DNA of 64,000 bases from the NCBI RefSeq assembly GCF_041429795.1, contig NZ_CP163424.1, forward strand, positions 1,986,001 through 2,050,000, given 5' to 3'. The notes under the pieces were generated by a model that saw only the letters and a program-made list of their open reading frames with translations, was not told where the DNA came from and ran no database searches. Below, in pieces: positions 3,512 through 34,625 of this stretch (position 1 is its first letter; the number at the start of each line of letters is the position of its first letter). This DNA comes from Algimonas porphyrae. Lineage in GTDB: Bacteria; Pseudomonadota; Alphaproteobacteria; Caulobacterales; Maricaulaceae. The position numbers and the translations under genes were made by a program.

Positions 3512-3961
3512 TCACAGCCCCAGTCGCCGCCAGAACGGAACCCGGACCTTCACCGTCTCTTTTGACGCCGCCTCTATGATCCGCGCCTGATCCGCTGCGG
3601 ACTTCGCGCACTGTGCATCCAGTACTGCTTGATCTCTCGCGCGCTGGTCATCAGCCGCGACAACCTGCTTCAACTGCCCCCGGTCGCGTCCATGATCAGC
3701 TGAGACGATGACAAGTGCGTCCTCGACCCCGCCTGTTTCCTCAGTCGATGGCGTCGGTGTGATCGGCTGGATCTGTTTCAGTTTCGGGTCCAACTCCAAC
3801 CTCGGACAGTCCCGGTCCACGACGACCGCCTTCACGGGCTGCGAGAGCTGCGTCGAGGCGCAGGCGGGTAGGAACAGGAACAGGAATGCGACGCCAATCG
3901 CGTTCCTCTTGCGTGAATGTCCGGGCCGACATCCCGGCGATCTGATCCGCATGTTGCGCAT
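3512..3961 (-). CDS. o-spanin (Rz1-like outer-membrane lipoprotein)
   Basis: A 149-residue frame overlapping the end of the i-spanin gene by about 220 bp in another frame, the classic Rz/Rz1 layout. Residues 18-34 (KRNAIGVAFLFLFLPAC) form a lipoprotein signal with an LPAC lipobox, followed by a proline-containing mature part. Spanin pairs join the inner and outer membranes and fuse them in the last step of host lysis. It is larger than lambda Rz1. Identification rests on lipobox, overlap and position. Confidence 0.7.
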   Translation of the reverse strand: MRNMRIRSPGCRPGHSRKRNAIGVAFLFLFLPACASTQLSQPVKAVVVDRDCPRLELDPKLKQIQPITPTPSTEETGGVEDALVIVSADHGRDRGQLKQVVAADDQRARDQAVLDAQCAKSAADQARIIEAASKETVKVRVPFWRRLGL

Positions 3962-4280
3962 ATATCGTCTCCAATGTTGTCGTGAATTGCTGCTGTGCGC
4001 GCTGATAACCCGCGGCCTCGCCTGCGATTAGGGCTGCGTCTCGTGCAGCCTGCCGCTCAGCCTCTGTGATGATCTCAACCATCCTGCCGTCCAGTTTCGC
4101 CGTTCCGGCCCGTATGGCGTCGGCATAAGCCTCTTTCCCGTCTGTGAAGGCCTTTTGATAGGTGAGCTGGTAGCTGATGATCGGACCCGCGACTGCGACT
4201 GCGCCCGTGATGAGCGCCGTTGACCATCCCGTCTTCGTCGCCAAGAACGTCACGAGCGGGTTTTTCGTTTGGTCGGTCAT
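3741..4280 (-). CDS. i-spanin (Rz-like inner-membrane subunit)
   Basis: A 179-residue protein starting at MTDQTKNPLV, where an ATGA overlap with the upstream stop fixes the start. A single transmembrane segment spans about residues 18-40 (WSTALITGAVAVAGPIISY). A charged, helical, coiled-coil-like periplasmic part follows, with many Glu/Ala/Arg residues over 55-145. It would pair with the overlapping o-spanin after the endolysin has degraded the wall. Confidence 0.75.
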   Translation of the reverse strand: MTDQTKNPLVTFLATKTGWSTALITGAVAVAGPIISYQLTYQKAFTDGKEAYADAIRAGTAKLDGRMVEIITEAERQAARDAALIAGEAAGYQRAQQQFTTTLETIYAQHADQIAGMSARTFTQEERDWRRIPVPVPTRLRLDAALAAREGGRRGPGLSEVGVGPETETDPADHTDAID

Positions 4281-26300: not shown

Positions 26301-26497
26301 GATTGCGGCTCCTGATTGATGCGCTGCCAGTGGCCTTCGAAGACCTCGCGGCGAAGATCTCCAAACGAGATGCCCCATGTTGCCTGAACCCCGGACCGGA
26401 CGGCGTTGCTGGATATGTTCAGCATTCGTCCGACATCGCTTGACGTCATCAGCGGGTTTTCGATCAGCACCATTTGGACCTGTTGCGCCCGGTTCAT
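26297..26497 (-). CDS. small helix-turn-helix protein
   Basis: A 66-residue protein. LIENPLMTSSDVGRMLNISS followed by NAVRSGVQATWGISFGDLR is a compact helix-turn-helix in which the second helix follows SSDVGRML. It probably binds DNA as a small regulator. Both ends overlap their neighbours by four bases. Confidence 0.6.
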   Translation of the reverse strand: MNRAQQVQMVLIENPLMTSSDVGRMLNISSNAVRSGVQATWGISFGDLRREVFEGHWQRINQEPQS

Positions 26498-27090
26498 GCA
26501 GCCACTCTCCGGTTTTCGCGCATCTGAGCCGCCCGCCTCTTGCGGTCCCCACCCACAAGGCCGACCAGCTCCGGCAGATAATGCCGCATGAAGGCTGTGA
26601 CCGTCCTGTCCGTGAACCCGTACGGCTCCAACGCCTCGAAGGGCGTTCCCCCATCTGCGATCCAATCCAGAACAAAGCCCACCCGGTGCGCGTTCGAATC
26701 CAGCAGGCTTTGGCGTTTATTCCCGGTGCGCCGGATTGGCGTGACATGGGACGGTACAGCCCGCAATGGCGTGTCAACCTTCGCTTCGCTTGCCAGCTTG
26801 GCATAGGCCCGAAAAACATGATTGAGCGGCTTGTCGTAATCCTGGCCGCGCAGGGGCAGCCCATTCAGCACCGCATGATGACGTCCGACCGAGTTGATGG
26901 CGGTCGTGTGATCCCGATCGCCAATGAAACGGCCAATGCGCGGGTAGGACCAGCCCAACTCCGTCCGTAGCCGGTAAGCCAGCGCATGACGCGGCGCGCA
27001 CTGATAGGTGTAGGTTTCCGATCCGCATATTTCCCGCGCAGACACACCATAGGCCGATACGATTTCGTTCAGGATAGCGGCGGCGGTCAT
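26494..27090 (-). CDS. stand-alone DnaA domain IV-like DNA-binding protein
   Basis: A 198-residue protein whose first 70 residues match the C-terminal DNA-binding domain of DnaA: PRHALAYRLRTELGWSYPRI, then GRFIGDRDHTTAINSV at about 53-68, which is the DnaA signature (DHTTV-type). The AAA+ ATPase part is absent. The rest is helical with a basic end (GGDRKRRAAQMRENRR). Domain IV alone recognises DnaA boxes, so this protein may recruit or compete with host DnaA at the phage or host origin. It sits next to a LexA-type domain protein and a DUF1376 replication gene. Confidence 0.82.
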   Translation of the reverse strand: MTAAAILNEIVSAYGVSAREICGSETYTYQCAPRHALAYRLRTELGWSYPRIGRFIGDRDHTTAINSVGRHHAVLNGLPLRGQDYDKPLNHVFRAYAKLASEAKVDTPLRAVPSHVTPIRRTGNKRQSLLDSNAHRVGFVLDWIADGGTPFEALEPYGFTDRTVTAFMRHYLPELVGLVGGDRKRRAAQMRENRRVAA

Positions 27091-27434
27091 GCGGCCTCGC
27101 TTTCCATTGTGGACACTTGGGGGGCGATGGACCGCAGGCGCGCGATTTCCTCATGGGCAATGATCAGCTCAGCAGCCAATCTATCTAACTCTTGATGAAG
27201 CTGGGTTCTAGACAAGCCGCCCGGCAGCGGTTTTTCGGTTCTCTCAAGACCACGGGCATGTGCTGGAATGCGCCTGATAAAACCCCGATTGATCAGACTA
27301 TCCAGACGGTAGTGAATTAACGATTTGCACGAAACCTCGGTCGCTCGCATCATCTCCAGGTAAGTCGGGGCGCGACCGTTACTCTCGATATAGCGCTCGA
27401 TGAAATCCAGAAGTTCGCGTTGTTTTTGGGTCAT
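27087..27434 (-). CDS. LexA-type DNA-binding domain protein without protease
   Basis: A 115-residue protein. Residues 1-68 (MTQKQRELLDFIERYIESNG, PTYLEMMRATEVSCKSLIHY, LINRGFIRRIP) are a LexA-like winged helix. The S24 autoprotease domain is missing; instead a coiled coil follows (LHQELDRLAAELIIAHEEIA). It could bind SOS or phage operators constitutively, without RecA-triggered self-cleavage. ATGA overlaps join it to both neighbours. Confidence 0.8.
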   Translation of the reverse strand: MTQKQRELLDFIERYIESNGRAPTYLEMMRATEVSCKSLIHYRLDSLINRGFIRRIPAHARGLERTEKPLPGGLSRTQLHQELDRLAAELIIAHEEIARLRSIAPQVSTMESEAA

Positions 27435-28426
27435 GCTGCGTCTTTCTCGGATTCGTTGGCGGGTATGGGCCGGATCGGGCCTATTGATATGTCCATCGCT
27501 GAAAGCATCGGTCCATATCGGCGTCTGATTTCTCGGTCGAAGAACGGCGTTGGCGGATGAACGACACGGCCTTCGTAAGTGACATTTCCGGGCGAAAGCC
27601 ATGCGATCCAAGGCCCAATTAACCCCGCGTCGATCATGTCGTCGTAAACTTCGGCGGCCACCGGGTCAGTCGGTCTGACATTGCTGGGATAGCGTTGGGA
27701 CTCATGAGGTTTTGCCGATAGCCATTCGCGCTGCGCCAACCATGTCCAAGCGAACATGTTGCGCGGCGGGGCATCCATGCCGTCAAGCGCGGCCATCACG
27801 GCTTGGCGGTCGGGGTCGTCCAGCCCATCCCACTCGTGTTTCGCCTTGTCCTTGCGGGACGGCTGGACGTGCGGGAACGCTTTCCAGAAATCATCAAACA
27901 AAAGGTCGGTCGGTCGGTCGGTCGATTGCGGCGGCTTGTCGGACTGACTGACTGACTTAGATAGAGAGGAGTCAGGGTTACTCTGGCTATTATCTAAGTC
28001 AGCACCAGCACCAGCACCAGCTTCCGCGCGCGTGTAGGGATTTTGACCTTCATTGTTTTCATTGGTTTTTTTCGGCGTTTCCCCCTGCCCTGCGGGCAAC
28101 CCATTTTTTCTGTTTCGGTCTGCCTTGCGGGAAGATAGACGCTGCGCCTTCTCCCATTCGGCCGTCAGCCGTTTATGCTTCCATCGCCCGTTTTCGACGG
28201 TGAAAAAGGGTTCGAGATGTGGCCTCAAAGCCTTCCATTTCTTCTGCGTGATTGAGAGCGTATTGCGCAGGAACATGTCGTCATCAGGCAGGTCTGCGCT
28301 ACCCATTCGCCACGCTTTCATGAGCAGCAGGAAATAGGCCCCGTGATGTTCCAGTTCCAAATGGGTTGTGTCGGCTAGATAGGCGTCCGTCCAAACTGGA
28401 AGCATATCCGTGCGTCTATCGGTCAT
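27431..28426 (-). CDS. DUF1376 replication-associated protein
   Basis: A 331-residue protein starting MTDRRTDMLPVWTDAYLADT. The N-terminal 95 residues match DUF1376, a winged-helix-like domain of phage replication proteins (HHGAYFLLLMKAWRMGSADL). A low-complexity linker (about 105-160, rich in Ser/Gly/Ala) contains an origin-like repeat, then a C-terminal FWKAFPHVQPSRKDKAKHEW domain resembling helicase-loader or primase-associated ends. Probable role: phage DNA replication initiation. Confidence 0.78.
   Translation of the reverse strand: MTDRRTDMLPVWTDAYLADTTHLELEHHGAYFLLLMKAWRMGSADLPDDDMFLRNTLSITQKKWKALRPHLEPFFTVENGRWKHKRLTAEWEKAQRLSSRKADRNRKNGLPAGQGETPKKTNENNEGQNPYTRAEAGAGAGADLDNSQSNPDSSLSKSVSQSDKPPQSTDRPTDLLFDDFWKAFPHVQPSRKDKAKHEWDGLDDPDRQAVMAALDGMDAPPRNMFAWTWLAQREWLSAKPHESQRYPSNVRPTDPVAAEVYDDMIDAGLIGPWIAWLSPGNVTYEGRVVHPPTPFFDREIRRRYGPMLSAMDISIGPIRPIPANESEKDAA
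27901..28018. repeat. simple repeats and 12-bp inverted repeat, possible phage origin
   Basis: Inside the linker of the DUF1376 gene lie tandem GTCG copies (27,904-27,924), ACTG copies (27,943-27,955), CAGCAC copies (28,001-28,018), and a perfect 12-bp inverted repeat, CTGACTTAGATA (27,952-27,963) / TATCTAAGTCAG (27,991-28,002), with an AT-richer loop. Iterated and palindromic DNA within an initiator gene is how lambda-type origins are built. Confidence 0.55.
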
Positions 28427-28824
28427 GCCGCCGCCCTCCCTGTCCATTGGACCGGGGCCTTGATCGGCAAGTCCATCAGGCCTTCTGCTTTCAGAACGAT
28501 CAGAACGGCCTCTAGCGATGCACAGACTGAAACAGGCGCGCCCATGGCGATCAGTTCGGCATGAACCTGCTTTTGCAACTTGGACAGCGATCCCGTTCCA
28601 GCCTTCAATTCAATGAACAGCACCCGACCGCCAGGCATCATGATCTGAAAATCCGGCCATCCGGGTTTCAGCCCCATGCGCTTCAACTTGGATCCCACAT
28701 GCAGCTTTCGGTTCTCACCTGCAGGGAAATGCGTCCACGGAATACCGCGTCGATCCAGATGAAGGGCAAAGGCCCCTGCAACCGTTTTCGTTAGAAGATA
28801 TTCGGGGTTCTGACGCCAACTCAT
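28423..28824 (-). CDS. VRR-NUC domain nuclease
   Basis: A 133-residue protein starting MSWRQNPEYLLTKTVAGAF. The VRR-NUC (PD-(D/E)XK) catalytic pattern is plain: LKPGWPDFQIMMPGGRVLFI gives the PD, FIELKAGTGSLSKLQ gives E-x-K, followed by the conserved QxxxHxxL helix (QKQVHAELIAMG). Phage members cut branched or flap DNA during replication or recombination. It is coupled to DUF1376 by ATGA. Confidence 0.9.
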   Translation of the reverse strand: MSWRQNPEYLLTKTVAGAFALHLDRRGIPWTHFPAGENRKLHVGSKLKRMGLKPGWPDFQIMMPGGRVLFIELKAGTGSLSKLQKQVHAELIAMGAPVSVCASLEAVLIVLKAEGLMDLPIKAPVQWTGRAAA

Positions 28825-29060
28825 GACGCACCTCGCCTCATAACCGCCCGCCACGCAGCTTCCGCTCTAATCAGGTCCGCCGTAGCTCTGATGTTGCACC
28901 GGTAGGACTGACCCTTCGCCTTGTCGTCATTGCGCATGACGGCATCGTGATAATCCCGGCAGGCCGCATTCCGTCGCTTCCTGGCCTCTCGTACTGGCGC
29001 CCATGCGCGAAACAATGGACCATAGGGGTGGTCGTCTCGGATGCGTTCAACGGCGCTCAC
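28821..29060 (-). CDS. small basic phage protein
   Basis: A 79-residue, Arg/Ala-rich helical protein (FRAWAPVREARKRRNAACRD, AEAAWRAVMRRG). No family is recognised. It lies in the replication operon and overlaps both neighbours by ATGA; nucleic-acid binding is possible from charge alone. Confidence 0.55.
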   Translation of the reverse strand: MSAVERIRDDHPYGPLFRAWAPVREARKRRNAACRDYHDAVMRNDDKAKGQSYRCNIRATADLIRAEAAWRAVMRRGAS

Positions 29061-29236
29061 GCGGCGTCTCCGTCCATTCTCTGGATCAGAGCCTCACGCT
29101 CGCCTGTCAGGCGGTTAATCAAGCCCTCAAGCTTGAGGATGGCGTGATGACGCCCCTTTGCTCTGTGCTTGATGATCGAAGCCCGGTGCAGGGCAAGGTC
29201 AAAGTCGATCTGTGCGATGCGGTCGGCGGGGGTCAT
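29057..29236 (-). CDS. small helical phage protein
   Basis: A 59-residue protein starting MTPADRIAQIDFDLALHRAS, fixed by the ATGA overlap with the upstream 40-residue gene. It is one or two long helices (HHAILKLEGLINRLTGEREA), like small dimeric coiled-coil proteins. Function unknown. Confidence 0.55.
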   Translation of the reverse strand: MTPADRIAQIDFDLALHRASIIKHRAKGRHHAILKLEGLINRLTGEREALIQRMDGDAA

Positions 29237-29355
29237 CGGCGCATCCAATCATCAAGCTCTTCGCCATCCTTCGGGCGCACGACATCGGCCAGCCAAATCA
29301 GTCCGTCCGACGTTCGCAGGAGAAAGCGCGCCAAGCGGCGACGTAAGCGTTTCAC
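29233..29355 (-). CDS. 40-aa basic phage protein
   Basis: A GTG at 29355 overlaps the upstream stop (GTGA), and the stop overlaps the next ATG (ATGA). The product begins KRLRRRLARFLLRTSDGLIW and ends with an acidic tail (KDGEELDDWMRR). The coupling at both ends supports expression. No family is recognised. Confidence 0.5.
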   Translation of the reverse strand: MKRLRRRLARFLLRTSDGLIWLADVVRPKDGEELDDWMRR

Positions 29356-29645
29356 AACATGGCTCTCAATTGTGCGGACCGTGCGCGATTGCGCGCAATC
29401 CGGTCGGCTAGGTCATCATCCATCGCCTGCACGATCTTCCTGCCAAGACTGAAACTCGGCTCAGTCTCACCAGAACGATAGGACGCGCATGTGCGCTCCC
29501 CTATGGCAATGCCATGGACGGAGAGCCCGTCCGCCATGGCTCTGGCACTAGGCCAATGGTCTCGACATTGCGCGGAAAAGTCCGCCGGTGCGGAAGTCCG
29601 CAGATATTGCGCGGAATGTTGCGTGGTCATCGTCAGTGCATCCAT
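29352..29645 (-). CDS. helix-turn-helix phage regulator
   Basis: A 97-residue protein (start MDALTMTTQHSAQ; MTTQHS at 29630 is the alternative). After AQCRDHWPSARAMADGLSVH comes a helix-turn-helix-like GERTCASYRSGETEPSFSLG, ending in a charged helix (DLADRIARNRARSAQLRAM). The pattern resembles CII/Cro-type activators of temperate phages but is not diagnostic. Confidence 0.6.
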   Translation of the reverse strand: MDALTMTTQHSAQYLRTSAPADFSAQCRDHWPSARAMADGLSVHGIAIGERTCASYRSGETEPSFSLGRKIVQAMDDDLADRIARNRARSAQLRAML

Positions 29646-29705
29646 GTCAGTAATCCAGACATGGCGAGTGAGACAGGAAAGACGACCGCGCCCCGGCGGG
29701 TGAGA

Positions 29706-29849
29706 ATGCAAGGGCAAGTCGTAGAGCTCTCGGACCATAGAAAGCGTCCGCTGACATGGACGCAGAGAAACAGGGTCGATGCGCAGAGCATCCGGCTCTA
29801 CCACGAACGCTGGCCGGGCGGGCAAAAGCCGTCCGGCGGCGGCGCTTGA
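29706..29849 (+). CDS. possible 47-aa divergent gene
   Basis: A + strand frame between two minus-strand early genes, preceded by GGGTGAGA as ribosome site. The product (VVELSDHRKRPLTWTQRNRV, LYHERWPGGQKPSG) reads like a natural basic peptide. The minus strand has no convincing gene over the same 200 bases. It could be a small regulator divergent from the HTH gene, or chance. Confidence 0.35.
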   Translation: MQGQVVELSDHRKRPLTWTQRNRVDAQSIRLYHERWPGGQKPSGGGA

Positions 29850-29864
29850 TATGAAGGCAATGCG

Positions 29865-30641
29865 TCATGAGCGGGCAACAAGTCCGATCTTCGACCTCGC
29901 TCCGAGCAAGTGTCCCGCGCCGCATTCCTTAAGGATTTGCCGAACGCGCTCGCTAGAAAGTTCCCACGGCATGCCGCACTCGGCAAGCGTCAGCCCGCTT
30001 TCGCGTAGCGCCACAATATCGCTCTCGCGGTCAAGAGAACATCTATCGCAAATAGCTGACGCTGGCGAATGCAATCTGTTTTCCCCGCATTCCGTGCAGG
30101 CCTTGTTAACGCCTTCGGCATTGAGCTTCCGCATCCGCTCGGCGGCGCGCTCGGCGTGTGCCTTCTTGAACTCCGGGTCGGTATGGAGCTTCCGCATCCG
30201 CTCGGCGTTGGCCTTCTTGAACTCCGGGTCGGTATGGAGCTTCCGCATCCGCTCGGCGGCGCGCTCGGCGTGTGCCTTCTTGAACTCCGGGTCGGCATTG
30301 AGCTTCCGCATCCGCTCGGCGTTGGCCTTCTTGAACTCCGGGTCGGTATGGAGCTTCCGCATCCGCTCGGCGTTGGCCTTCTTGAACTCCGGGTCGGTAT
30401 GGAGCTTCCGCATCCGCTCGGCGTTGGCCTTCTTGAACTCCGGGTCGGTATGGAGCTTCCGCATCCGCTCGGCGGCGCGCTCGGCGTGTGCCTTCTTGAA
30501 CTCCGGGTCGGCATTGAGCTTCCGCATCCGCTCGGCGTGTGCCGACAGGTCGGAGCAATGCCGACATGGACCTCGCTGCCCGAGCGTCAAGCACGGTGAA
30601 CCCTCAGGCTGCTTGCAAATCTTTCGTCGCTGCACACCCAC
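29865..30641 (-). CDS. helical-repeat protein with zinc ribbon and sigma4-like HTH
   Basis: A 258-residue protein starting at GTG 30641 one base after the upstream stop, behind a G-rich ribosome site. N-terminus: CKQPEGSPC ... CRHC, a possible zinc finger. Middle: eight copies of an RMRKL helix unit, seven of them complete as AERMRKLxxDPEFKKA(H/N), 17 residues each, or 21 when followed by AERA. C-terminus: a CTECGE ... CDRC zinc ribbon, then LTLAECGMPWELSSERVRQI, which fits the helix-turn-helix of sigma70 region 4. It looks like a modular DNA- or RNA-polymerase-binding protein. No characterised homologue is known to me. Confidence 0.75.
   Translation of the reverse strand: MGVQRRKICKQPEGSPCLTLGQRGPCRHCSDLSAHAERMRKLNADPEFKKAHAERAAERMRKLHTDPEFKKANAERMRKLHTDPEFKKANAERMRKLHTDPEFKKANAERMRKLNADPEFKKAHAERAAERMRKLHTDPEFKKANAERMRKLHTDPEFKKAHAERAAERMRKLNAEGVNKACTECGENRLHSPASAICDRCSLDRESDIVALRESGLTLAECGMPWELSSERVRQILKECGAGHLLGARSKIGLVARS
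30119..30540. repeat. 51/63-bp tandem coding repeats
   Basis: Near-identical tandem units of 51 bp (17 codons) and 63 bp (21 codons) encode the helical repeats. Two unit types alternate: HTD-PEFKKAN and NAD-PEFKKAH plus AERA. The near-perfect identity of copies implies recent expansion or conversion, and copy number may vary between isolates. Confidence 0.85.
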
Positions 30642-30642
30642 G

Positions 30643-30882
30643 TCAGCGACCCCCGCCAAACGCACGGGCATGACGCGCATTCTGCACCATCCTGACGCAC
30701 CACAGCACCTGTACGCAGAACAGCGCCCACAGCAGCGACATGACGCCGGAATAGACCAGGCCATGCGCGAGCAACCAGACGCCGCCATAGACGCTTGCGC
30801 CAGCCGACAGGGCCAGCGCGGCCTTGAAGGCGCGGAGCCAATAGGCGCATATGAAGCGGGCGAGGGTCACGAAGCGGCACAC
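30643..30882 (-). CDS. small two-span membrane protein
   Basis: About 79 residues from GTG 30882 (GTG 30870, MTLARFICAYW, is the alternative). Two hydrophobic segments (AFKAALALSAGASVYGGVWL and VYSGVMSLLWALFCVQVLWC) are followed by a basic tail. It lies between the Cro-like and repeat-protein genes in the early operon. No family is recognised. Confidence 0.55.
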   Translation of the reverse strand: MCRFVTLARFICAYWLRAFKAALALSAGASVYGGVWLLAHGLVYSGVMSLLWALFCVQVLWCVRMVQNARHARAFGGGR

Positions 30883-30922: not shown

Positions 30923-31135
30923 TCACGCCGTAGCCCCATCGGTGGCGGCGGGGGCGTGATGCCGCATGTAGTCGCGAAGGCGCTCCAAGGACTGCACAGT
31001 GACGTTCTCGCCACGCTGCACTTTGTGAACGAAGTTCGGATTGCGCATTGCGCGCTTTCCAAGCTCCGTTGCATTCAATCCGGTCGCCTCAAGGTAGCTG
31101 GCAACTTCGTCCTGCACGATCTGAAACAAGGTCAT
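30923..31135 (-). CDS. Cro-like XRE-family repressor
   Basis: A 70-residue protein, first gene leftward from the switch region and divergent from CI. LNATELGKRAMRNPNFVHKV at about residues 20-39 is an XRE-type helix-turn-helix, followed by RGENVTVQSLERLRDYM. Size, place and direction fit a Cro repressor that would shut down CI synthesis on induction. Confidence 0.8.
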   Translation of the reverse strand: MTLFQIVQDEVASYLEATGLNATELGKRAMRNPNFVHKVQRGENVTVQSLERLRDYMRHHAPAATDGATA

Positions 31136-31219: not shown

Positions 31220-31882
31220 GTGCGTAGAATCAAGACAGATGGGTTGGAGGGTGAGCGGCTTGCGTTGGTCGAGGCAGCCAACGCGCGCGGTAAAAACCTC
31301 AAAGAGCTTTCACTGAAGCTGGGTAGAAATCACTCGTATCTCTACCAGTTCGTCAAGCGCCACGCGCCGGCCCACCTTACAGCTGAAGATGCCAGCGCCC
31401 TGGGCAAGTGGCTAATGGTGGATCCATCCAGCCTGTCTGCCAACTACGTATCTAGCCTGCTATTGGCGGAAAGCGCTCCTGCAAAGAAGCCCATCCCCAT
31501 CGTCGGCTACATCGGCGCGGGTGATGAGGTGCAGTTCGTGGACAGCTACGCCAAGGGCGACGGCATGGACGAGGTGACGGTGGAGGGCTACTATTCCCCG
31601 TCCGCTGTGGGAGCCGTGATACGCGGTCATTCCATGCGAGACCGCAACCTGTTCGACGAGGATCTCTTGATCTGGGACGACACGCGGCCCGACATTGAAG
31701 CTTTCGTCGGTAAGCGCGCCTGCGTGGTCAAGCTGGCCGACGAGCGCATTATGGTGAAGCAGGTCGTGCATGGCGCGGAACCGGGCCTCTACACCCTGCT
31801 ATCGTCCAACTATCCGCCTATCGAGGACGTGGCGCTACTCTGGTGCGCCAAGATCAAACTGGTTTTGCAGCGGGGGGATTGA
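31220..31882 (+). CDS. CI-type repressor with S24 autoprotease domain
   Basis: A 220-residue prophage repressor. Residues 10-70 hold a helix-turn-helix (GKNLKELSLKLGRNHSYLYQ). Residues about 92-215 are the LexA/CI S24 domain, with a cleavage-site-like VGYIGAGDE, catalytic Ser138 (IRGHSMRDRN) and Lys171 (ACVVKLADE). RecA-stimulated self-cleavage would induce the prophage. The GTG start may be leaderless. The 3-TM gene follows 2 bases later. Confidence 0.9.
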   Translation: MRRIKTDGLEGERLALVEAANARGKNLKELSLKLGRNHSYLYQFVKRHAPAHLTAEDASALGKWLMVDPSSLSANYVSSLLLAESAPAKKPIPIVGYIGAGDEVQFVDSYAKGDGMDEVTVEGYYSPSAVGAVIRGHSMRDRNLFDEDLLIWDDTRPDIEAFVGKRACVVKLADERIMVKQVVHGAEPGLYTLLSSNYPPIEDVALLWCAKIKLVLQRGD

Positions 31883-33169: not shown

Positions 33170-33390
33170 TGACGGCCTTTGACGCCGCCATACACGAGCC
33201 TCGCGGTGATCTGATGGATGATCTGTTCGAGGCGCTAGTCAAGCATGAAGACGCGGCAAGGGCCACAGGGCAATCCTGTGAGGACGGCGAGGGTTGCTGC
33301 GACCTCTACCTGCGGGACGATCCACACCTGCACGCCCTGCGCCGGATCGCCAATGAGCTTCATGATGAATTTAAGGCGAGGGCTGCGTGA
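33169..33390 (+). CDS. small acidic phage protein
   Basis: A 73-residue acidic protein with CEDGEGCCDLY, a Cys cluster that might bind metal. TGATG overlaps at both ends couple it to its neighbours. No family is recognised. Confidence 0.5.
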   Translation: MTAFDAAIHEPRGDLMDDLFEALVKHEDAARATGQSCEDGEGCCDLYLRDDPHLHALRRIANELHDEFKARAA

Positions 33391-34625
33391 TGGCTGATAC
33401 CTTACACATCACTAAATCAGATTTAGACGAGAACGGCTTCTACAAAGAAGACTCAATCGACTTCGACGGACACATTCGCATCGCCGCGAACCTTGGCTAT
33501 GTCCGGTTTAAGTTCTCCATTCGAGCAAATCTCAGCATTCAAGCTGACGCTGGATCGGGCATCAAGGCTGGAGGGGGCATCGAGGCTGGATGGGGCATCA
33601 AGGCTGGATGGGGCATCGAGGCTGGAGAGGGCATCGAGGCTGGATGGGGCATCGAGGCTGGATGGGGCATCGAGGCTGGATGGGGCATCAAGGCTGGATC
33701 GGGCATCAAGGCTGGAGAGGGCATCGAGGCTGGAGAGGGCATCGAGGCTGGATGGGGCATCGAGGCTGGATGGGGCATCGAGGCTGGATGGGGCATCAAG
33801 GCTGGATCGGGCATCGAGGCTGGATGGGGCATCAAGGCTGGATGGGGCATCAAGGCTGGATGGGGCATCGAGGCTGGATGGGGCATCAAGGCTGGATCGG
33901 GCATCGAGGCTGGATGGGGCATCGAGGCTGGATGGGGCATCAAGGCTGGATCGGGCATCAAGGCTGGAGAGGGCATCGAGGCTGGATCGGGCATCAAGGC
34001 TGGAGAGGGCATCGAGGCTGGAGAGGGCATCTTCGCGAAAACCGTCACGGCTGCATACAACATCTTTGCTGGGGTATCGACTTACATCGACGCGCGCGGT
34101 GCTAATAAGCTTGTTGCCGCCCAAGTCCTGAGCGGAAATCTTGCCTACGGCCTACATGAGCCGTCCGCTCAGCTTATCGATGGCATTCCAACAATTCTTG
34201 GTAAATGGCGGAAGAAAGGTGACATTGAGTACTGCAAGGGGTTTCGCTGTCCTGACGATAGCGACGATCTGAGAGCAAAAGGCAATGCCTGCTTTGTGGC
34301 ACGAAGGGGCGATGTTTATTCGCATGGCCGCAAGTTACGCGAGGCCGTCAATGATCTTGAATATAAGCTTCTGTGCAACGCTAACGTCCCTGAAGTTGCG
34401 GCGCTCATCATTCAGGAAGGTGTGGTCACTCTCCAGCAGTGGCGCGCTATAACGCGGGCGTGTGCATACGGAACCGCGTTGCACTTGGGCCTGTCTGTCG
34501 ATGACCTCCCTGAGAGCATGTCTATTCAAGACAGTTTTGAAAAGTGCGCCGGAACAGGCTTCGGAAATACGTACCGAAGGGCGCTTCTGGATGCTGGCTA
34601 TGTCCCGGCTGAGGTGGCCGCATGA
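33390..34625 (+). CDS. hexapeptide-repeat (beta-solenoid) phage protein
   Basis: A 411-residue protein. Residues 1-54 are a small beta domain; 55-216 are 27 hexapeptides of the form G-[WSEG]-G-I-[EK]-A, varying at two positions only; 217-411 form a globular domain with CKGFRCPDDSDD and FVARRGDVYSHGRKLREA. A strict six-residue period with Gly/Ile/Ala suggests a parallel beta-solenoid whose exposed faces carry the variable residues. Function unknown; binding or scaffold roles are inferred. TGATG couples it to the upstream gene. Confidence 0.75.
   Translation: MADTLHITKSDLDENGFYKEDSIDFDGHIRIAANLGYVRFKFSIRANLSIQADAGSGIKAGGGIEAGWGIKAGWGIEAGEGIEAGWGIEAGWGIEAGWGIKAGSGIKAGEGIEAGEGIEAGWGIEAGWGIEAGWGIKAGSGIEAGWGIKAGWGIKAGWGIEAGWGIKAGSGIEAGWGIEAGWGIKAGSGIKAGEGIEAGSGIKAGEGIEAGEGIFAKTVTAAYNIFAGVSTYIDARGANKLVAAQVLSGNLAYGLHEPSAQLIDGIPTILGKWRKKGDIEYCKGFRCPDDSDDLRAKGNACFVARRGDVYSHGRKLREAVNDLEYKLLCNANVPEVAALIIQEGVVTLQQWRAITRACAYGTALHLGLSVDDLPESMSIQDSFEKCAGTGFGNTYRRALLDAGYVPAEVAA
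33552..34037. repeat. 18-bp tandem repeat array, 27 units, two variable codons
   Basis: Units of GGA-NNN-GGC-ATC-NAG-GCT in perfect phase. Codon 2 is TGG, TCG, GAG or GGG; codon 5 is GAG or AAG; the last unit is degenerate (GGCATCTTCGCG end). Units 5-8 and 11-14 have the same order of variants, so blocks have been duplicated. All frames are open across the array, which creates spurious frames on both strands. Confidence 0.95.

Follow-up and report, generated by a model that had tools for sequence, protein, structure and literature searches.

An array of short repeated units that is common to the tails of phage GIY-YIG homing endonucleases is present, with no nuclease domain detected, in a protein encoded by a prophage of Algimonas porphyrae, within the 64,000-nucleotide stretch of DNA analyzed here (the window). 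Nuclease-free relatives of this protein cluster downstream of cro in other phages. The protein is neither a sigma factor nor a homing endonuclease. We think it reasonably probable that it is a nuclease-free early-operon protein of a temperate phage, built on a homing-endonuclease-type array, that binds DNA and represses or modulates early transcription. Read from the sequence, its binding, its target and its role are probably those of an early-operon DNA-binding protein with a regulatory function.

Results

The array gene is located on the reverse strand at 29865..30641 and encodes 258 amino acids from a GTG start codon. In the open-reading-frame list the mechanical frame shares the stop at 29865 and begins at 30788 (307 aa). 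The start at 30641 is likely, because its GTG sits one base past the TGA at 30643-30645 that closes the preceding small ORF. Tandem Repeats Finder reports a repeat at 30148-30538 with a period of 216, 98% matches and a score of 768, which is far beyond chance. Because this period is divisible by three, openness of the frame says little by itself about coding; array proteins with the same reading recur in other phages.

The ERMRKL motif occurs eight times in the protein, with seven copies reading ERMRKL(NA/HT)DPEFKKA and the eighth ERMRKLNAEGVNK. Together these eight units (seven with DPEFKKA) form an array at 30102..30536 on the reverse strand, with 17 or 21 residues between successive DPEF motifs and a positively biased composition (K+R 42, D+E 26 across 146 aa). 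Four cysteines precede the array and four follow it, with finger-type spacing that suggests putative zinc binding: an N-terminal cluster C-x7-C-x8-C-x2-C (aa 9-29, 30555..30617, reverse strand), a putative zinc finger whose ending G-x-C-R-[SH]-C is common to the related loci L017, L058 and L059, and a second cluster C-x2-C-x12-C-x2-C (aa 182-201, 30039..30098, reverse strand), a putative zinc ribbon. An HTH-like stretch (aa 204-239, 29925..30032, reverse strand) scored below the Sigma70_r4 cut-off in the Pfam scan, and the C-terminus contains GLTLAECGMPWELSSERVRQI. The earlier note had described eight RMRKL units (seven complete), Cys-rich flanks, an HTH-like C-terminus and near-identical DNA repeats, a description that holds.

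Family searches placed the protein in no named regulator family. The GIY-YIG family (PF01541) gave zero Pfam matches at E≤10 in the 307-aa ORF, and no nuclease domain was detected. PHROG matches were at E=3.3e-4 or weaker, the better ones being families of unknown function and the sole transcription-labelled one reaching E=0.087. DUF7623 (PF24610) scored 36.8 bits against a cut-off of 27, through six partial repeat matches of which the best covered positions 15-44 of the 64 in the profile; we read this match as repeat composition and set the kinship aside. Pfam matches of the GBP_repeat, GerD, NUC153 and STI1-HOP_DP type, some of them above cut-off, were partial hits to short repeats and were left unused.

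The earlier note had placed the C-terminus close to sigma70 region 4 and had raised RNA polymerase binding. Sigma70_r4 (PF04545) scored 16.2, 18.7 and 19.8 bits on three cuts of the protein against a Pfam cut-off of 24.1, so membership among the sigma factors was rejected. On the last 60 aa the family is nevertheless the best Pfam match (19.8 bits, E=5.8e-4) and sigma-factor models account for eight of 11 weak NCBIfam matches, as would be expected if the array protein bound RNA polymerase through a C-terminus that mimics sigma region 4, redirecting or blocking the host enzyme. However, the same model reaches 12.9-15.2 bits on the HTHs of other array proteins: 14.0 bits on the HTH-like end of the Burkholderia phage Maja protein described below, 15.2 bits on a plasmid-borne array protein, in its HTH_3 region, and, for N-terminal HTHs, 12.9 bits on L027 and 13.2 bits on L083. 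The C-terminus of the window protein thus appears to resemble region 4 somewhat more than the generic HTHs of this group do, yet below the cut-off. PDB sequence matches are at chance level (the best, an HNH protein, at E=0.036 and SigA at 0.17), the tails of relatives do not align with this C-terminus, and the C-terminus modelled alone is not confident (pLDDT 45). Searches with the C-terminal 81 aa found no significant relative among phages (two rows only, E=4 and 5), a match solely in the window's own genome among 60 genomes, and 24 candidate stretches in viral contigs with zero confirmed. We consider polymerase binding very unlikely, and this part of the earlier note unsupported.

The array itself is better modelled. 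AlphaFold2 with six relatives predicted that each unit forms one helix, interrupted at Asp-Pro; block means were 91-95 for residues 41-170, both ends were low, and the pTM for the whole was 0.37. A PDB fold search gave zero matches at E≤0.001. Comparison with 11 PDB chains returned one row (Z 2.0), chain N of a 30S ribosome structure, which is the sole and very weak fold match for the second Cys cluster. In the BFVD fold search the only match at E≤0.001 was the Maja GIY-YIG enzyme (E=4.4e-6).

The same enzyme was the best sequence match. A tblastn search of 50,697 phage records returned seven records at E≤1, led by Burkholderia phage Maja (E=3e-21, query 115-268), where the matching protein is annotated as a GIY-YIG homing endonuclease. 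BLASTP aligned the window protein with the Maja array at 47% identity over 104 aa. The Maja protein, gp110 (QOV06330.1), resembles the window protein in its DPEF units, which are spaced 17/21 aa apart, and in the HTH-like end that comes after them. Unlike the window protein, it carries an N-terminal GIY-YIG domain (45.6 bits), its array is by eye without flanking Cys clusters, and no HTH_3 repressor is encoded in the 1.7 kb of upstream DNA present in the record. The 17/21-aa motif spacing is also found in nuclease-bearing L006 and L022, and in L020 and L042 it occurs together with longer gaps, given the motif used.

A viral search with the repeat profile yielded 37 loci, many encoding GIY-YIG-type enzymes with array tails and others encoding array proteins without a visible nuclease, the nuclease calls being family matches for some loci and made by eye for others. 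By its sequence, the window protein belongs with the nuclease-free sort. Close relatives are rare: a match at E≤0.001, mostly weak, was found in 4 of 398 genomes of the order and 3 of 385 genomes of the class, the window itself excluded from both counts. Scanning genome contigs with the whole protein gave 16 candidate stretches, none confirmed, and scanning them with repeat profile A3 gave at least 595, of which at least five were confirmed. This profile scan of genome contigs and three more viral scans enlarged the nuclease-free group. L016 and L018 are two ends of one contig, and the contigs of L016/L018, L019, L026, L030, L057, L093 and L099 start or stop within the array; contigs ending inside arrays suggest that assemblies probably break at the repeats and that surveys undercount such genes. 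The plasmid search returned one record, a Massilia plasmid (E=3e-3). At L012 2578-3435, on the Massilia sp. H6 plasmid, lies a gene for an HTH_3 protein with array-like repeats, beside a HipA-domain gene and near dptF.

The nuclease-free proteins vary in what surrounds the array. A cluster of four or five cysteines lies right before the array in the window protein, L017, L058, L059, L092 and L095, is partial in L018 and L089, and is absent from L014, L027, L060 and L083. The finger-array-finger protein of L059 is closest to the window's plan. An HTH-like N-terminal region, below Pfam cut-offs, is present in L027 and L083, and the L009 N-terminus matches GcrA at 27.6 bits (Pfam cut-off 26.9) and falls far short of the NCBIfam GcrA equivalog cut-off (21.8 of 280). 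This GcrA domain and the HTH_3 region of L012 are N-terminal partners of a DNA-binding type, in keeping with an array that binds DNA. The window's finger-HTH C-terminus was found in none of the aligned nuclease-free relatives, whose tails and unit numbers differ. Repeat number, which the earlier note suggested might set the regulator's reach, does vary, from 1 to 7 DP[EV]-type units across the complete proteins counted. At L089 3944-4177 a protein starts with Cys-rich sequence, continues with two DPVF units and ends in a tail that is hydrophobic and may span the membrane. At L015, a GIY-YIG match lies in a separate ORF (~3853-4059) about 0.6 kb downstream of the nuclease-free array gene, so a split enzyme is possible there; alternatively this ORF is a neighboring homing gene.

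Net positive helical units, an early-operon place and the hydrophobic tail that ends L089 would also suit a protein that binds an RNA or protein partner via its basic helical array, in the manner of an antiterminator or anti-repressor. The partner domains that score above cut-off, repeat-type matches within arrays aside, are nuclease, HTH (such as the HTH_3 of L012, 44.5 bits) or GcrA, which argues against this alternative, and we judge it quite improbable.

NUMOD3 motifs are short repeated modules of nuclease tails that correspond to the minor-groove helix of I-TevI. The L086 and L027 proteins are alike at both ends (37% over 122 aa, E=1e-12), and at the position of L027's DPEF array L086 has three NUMOD3 motifs (60.7 bits) with a 17-aa period. 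This swap indicates that the array occupies the place of a known nuclease-associated module. The L086 gene itself (3761-4183 of a viral contig) encodes an HTH-like region, the three NUMOD3 motifs and a tail, with no nuclease domain matched. In the window protein NUMOD3 (PF07460) had zero matches at E≤10, and in L009, L038, L041 and L035 it was sub-threshold (13.9-16.9 bits vs 20.4). Sequence homology between DPEF units and NUMOD3 was not significant (hhalign probability 0.5): the pooled best register shift was 0 of 17, a fit that 188 of 1000 column-shuffled sets reached as well, and for the units of the window protein alone the best shift is 15.

In the prophage, the array gene lies next to the predicted genetic switch of the phage. 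A CI-like repressor with an S24-like C-terminal half (31220..31882, forward strand), assigned from weak similarity and arrangement, diverges from the early operon. It matched LexA and UmuD-type models at E=0.086 and 0.014, none above cut-off, shared 34% over 122 aa with the S24 part of the L058 repressor, and had no PDB sequence match at E≤1. On the reverse strand there follow a Cro-like small protein (30923..31135) with no Pfam or PHROG family at E≤0.01, a small hydrophobic protein (30643..30882) with no family match at E≤0.01, and the array gene. Over 54 aa the Cro-like protein shares 30% identity with the L083 ORF that occupies the Cro position and likewise precedes an array gene. This predicted order, with CI and Cro called by arrangement and weak similarity, places the array gene in the early operon, downstream of cro and divergent from the repressor. 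On the repressor side of the prophage, a gene at 33387-34625 (forward strand) encodes a 412-aa protein with hexapeptide repeats of the GIEAGW type, the 18-nt unit recurring about 27 times (91% matches), and no Pfam or PHROG match at E≤0.01.

Further early genes assigned by family matches continue on the reverse strand downstream of the array gene (26494..29825): a gene without an assigned family (29352-29825), a VRR-NUC gene (28423-28854), a DUF1376/primosomal gene (27431-28447), a short protein matching the LexA DNA-binding domain only (27087-27518) and, adjoining it, a short protein matching the DnaA C-terminal domain only (26494-27090). The VRR-NUC, primosomal DUF1376 and DnaA-type genes suggest the main rival, in which the protein is a DNA-binding replication or partition accessory rather than a transcription regulator and its array holds the origin or recruits the primosome. 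Compatible with this are primase/helicase-like ORFs after the array gene in L014 and L019 (by eye), the ParB-like gene before and the transposase-like ORF after it in L060 (by eye), and a Paracoccus phage NUMOD1-HTH protein that a passage in PMC6536676 guesses to act in replication. In L017, L027, L058 and L059, however, the array gene abuts the Cro-like gene and not replication genes, and we regard the replication role as unlikely, if less so than the other alternatives.

The position beside cro recurs among the nuclease-free genes. Like the window gene, those of L017, L058, L059, L027, L083, L016/L018, L014, L009 and L060 lie downstream of a cro- or ner-like gene, and several of them have an N-terminal finger or HTH; several of the Cro and CI calls at relatives rest on sub-threshold matches and arrangement. 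Array gene and Cro-like gene overlap by 1-4 bases in L017, L027, L058 and L059, the start of the former lying inside the end of the latter, and the Cro-like gene diverges from a CI-like repressor. The gap between the two genes is 28 bases in L016/L018 and 79 bases in L083. In L060 a ParB-like gene separates the ner-like HTH_35 gene from the array gene that follows it. At L014, two ORFs lie between the Cro-like and array genes, one of them CII-like (PHROG 101); with a CII-like gene present there as well, the array protein is not just a substitute for CII.

We counted the loci at which the 3 kb upstream of the array gene contain, on the opposite strand, an HTH_3 match (E≤0.01). Such a match was present for 11 of the 15 loci without a nuclease and for 0 of the 20 with one (Fisher P=3.3e-6), in a count that excludes the window itself and uses classes assigned by hand after the pattern had been noticed. 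Limiting the nuclease-bearing loci to those with a family match gave 11 of 15 versus 0 of 10 (P=5.5e-4). A first count on fewer loci (9/11 vs 0/18) was replaced by the present one, and a binomial test built on an arbitrary chance of 0.15 is given no weight. The nuclease-free loci with the match are L009, L014, L016/L018, L017, L027, L049, L058, L059, L060, L083 and L095, and those without it are L015, L032, L089 and L092; in L092, HTH_3 did not pick up an S24 repressor encoded about 2 kb upstream. In 17 of the 20 nuclease-bearing records there is no HTH_3 match anywhere, so the contrast may partly be one of temperate versus virulent phages.

Recurrence of the place after cro bears on whether the protein might be a homing endonuclease remnant that has lost its nuclease and is decaying or neutral. 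Besides sharing its array with GIY-YIG enzymes, the protein has near-identical units that could be a product of slippage, and several arrays show no deficit of nonsynonymous relative to synonymous changes (pN/pS 0.89-1.12 in L057, L058 and L009, and 3.87 in L016, all from few changes). Against decay, the frame is intact, the N-terminal finger is common to other nuclease-free members, the place recurs, and the window array has a pN of 0.027 against a pS of 0.061 (few changes). We find a remnant improbable.

Variation among units recurrently falls on an Asn/His position two residues before DPEF. In the window protein (plus an adjacent Ala/Thr), L014, L018 and L059, the 15-aa units compared differ in no other amino acid; the position varies along with other residues in L017, L057 and L058 and is invariant in L013, L016 and L027. 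In nuclease-bearing L006, L020 and L022 it varies among many other variable places. Shared ancestry of two unit types explains this pattern as well as function does.

Methods

Classes for the upstream count were assigned as follows. Nuclease-bearing loci with a family match at E≤0.001 were L003, L006, L007, L036, L039, L045 and L048 (above cut-off) and L020, L022 and L035 (below cut-off). L001, L025, L031, L033, L038, L040, L041, L042, L046 and L072 were classed as nuclease-bearing by eye; L040 is cut off and doubtful as such, and in L033 the PF01541 match sits in an ORF upstream of the array ORF. Upstream DNA was shorter than 3 kb in nuclease-bearing L006 and L046 and in L049 and L083, both with an HTH_3 match. 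The contigs of L058, L059 and L060 were recognized by coordinates among those scanned for HTH_3.

We left out duplicates or near-duplicates (L002, L013, L021, L023, L024, L028, L043, L044 and the repeated contigs L062-L071, L073-L075, L077, L078, L081, L082, L084, L087, L088, L090, L091, L094, L096-L098); loci in which a contig end cuts the array gene or the DNA upstream of it is too short (L019, L026, L029, L030, L037, L047, L057, L093, L099); weak matches (L008, L010, L011, L051-L053, of which L051 and L053 are GIY-YIG-like by eye); L085 and L086, which have no DPEF array; and L061, L076, L079 and L080, in which no array protein was made out. Also left out were L034, whose gene model is doubtful even though an HTH_3 pair lies upstream, and L012, a plasmid locus with HTH_3 inside the same protein.

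Discussion

We propose that the two putative fingers would bind zinc and, jointly with the HTH, fix the protein to a site, and that the positively charged one-helix units would run along the DNA and extend the footprint. By binding within or close to the early control region, the protein could then repress or modulate early transcription soon after Cro is made. The model's precedent is I-TevI of phage T4 repressing its own promoter: a passage in PMC2988022 describes a DNA-binding part of zinc finger, helix and HTH, and a DNA-binding domain that binds an operator and represses the promoter. A putative zinc finger, helical units and an HTH-like stretch recur in the window protein, a likeness of plan. 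In contrast to the window protein, I-TevI has a single helix and not an array, retains its nuclease and belongs to a virulent phage.

The earlier note had suggested an array-type DNA-binding regulator, and kinship with GIY-YIG tails together with the place beside cro lends that suggestion indirect support. It had also known of no characterized protein with this plan; we likewise found none, the DNA-binding part of I-TevI, as presented in that same passage of PMC2988022, being a precedent in function.

Homing-endonuclease arrays and nuclease-derived regulators are already known. WhiA is a transcription regulator related to homing endonucleases with lost catalytic residues, according to a passage in PMC3781837. 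It differs from the window protein in its LAGLIDADG-type ancestry, its bacterial gene, the degenerate nuclease domain that it keeps and its use of an added HTH to bind DNA. What is new, as far as our searches of an open-access library show, is that an array gene free of nuclease recurs behind cro in temperate phages: none of the papers listed deals, by title or abstract, with nuclease-free array proteins, which does not prove that no such paper exists.

A more speculative extension, to which we give little credence, is that temperate phages recurrently carry a class of post-cro regulators in which modular helix units of 17 aa, interchangeable with those of NUMOD3, are set between exchangeable fingers and HTHs. 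The number of units would set the footprint and the Asn/His before DPEF would tune base preference, making the array a TALE-like modular DNA reader derived from homing-endonuclease tails.

If the early-operon regulator reading is true, it would link the DNA-binding tails of homing endonucleases with the early regulators of temperate phages, two groups that are usually told apart, and would provide a phage counterpart of the nuclease domestication seen in WhiA. The short basic array with one helix per unit might represent a modular DNA-binding scaffold. Moreover, the reading would give a testable role to early genes that are now without a family.
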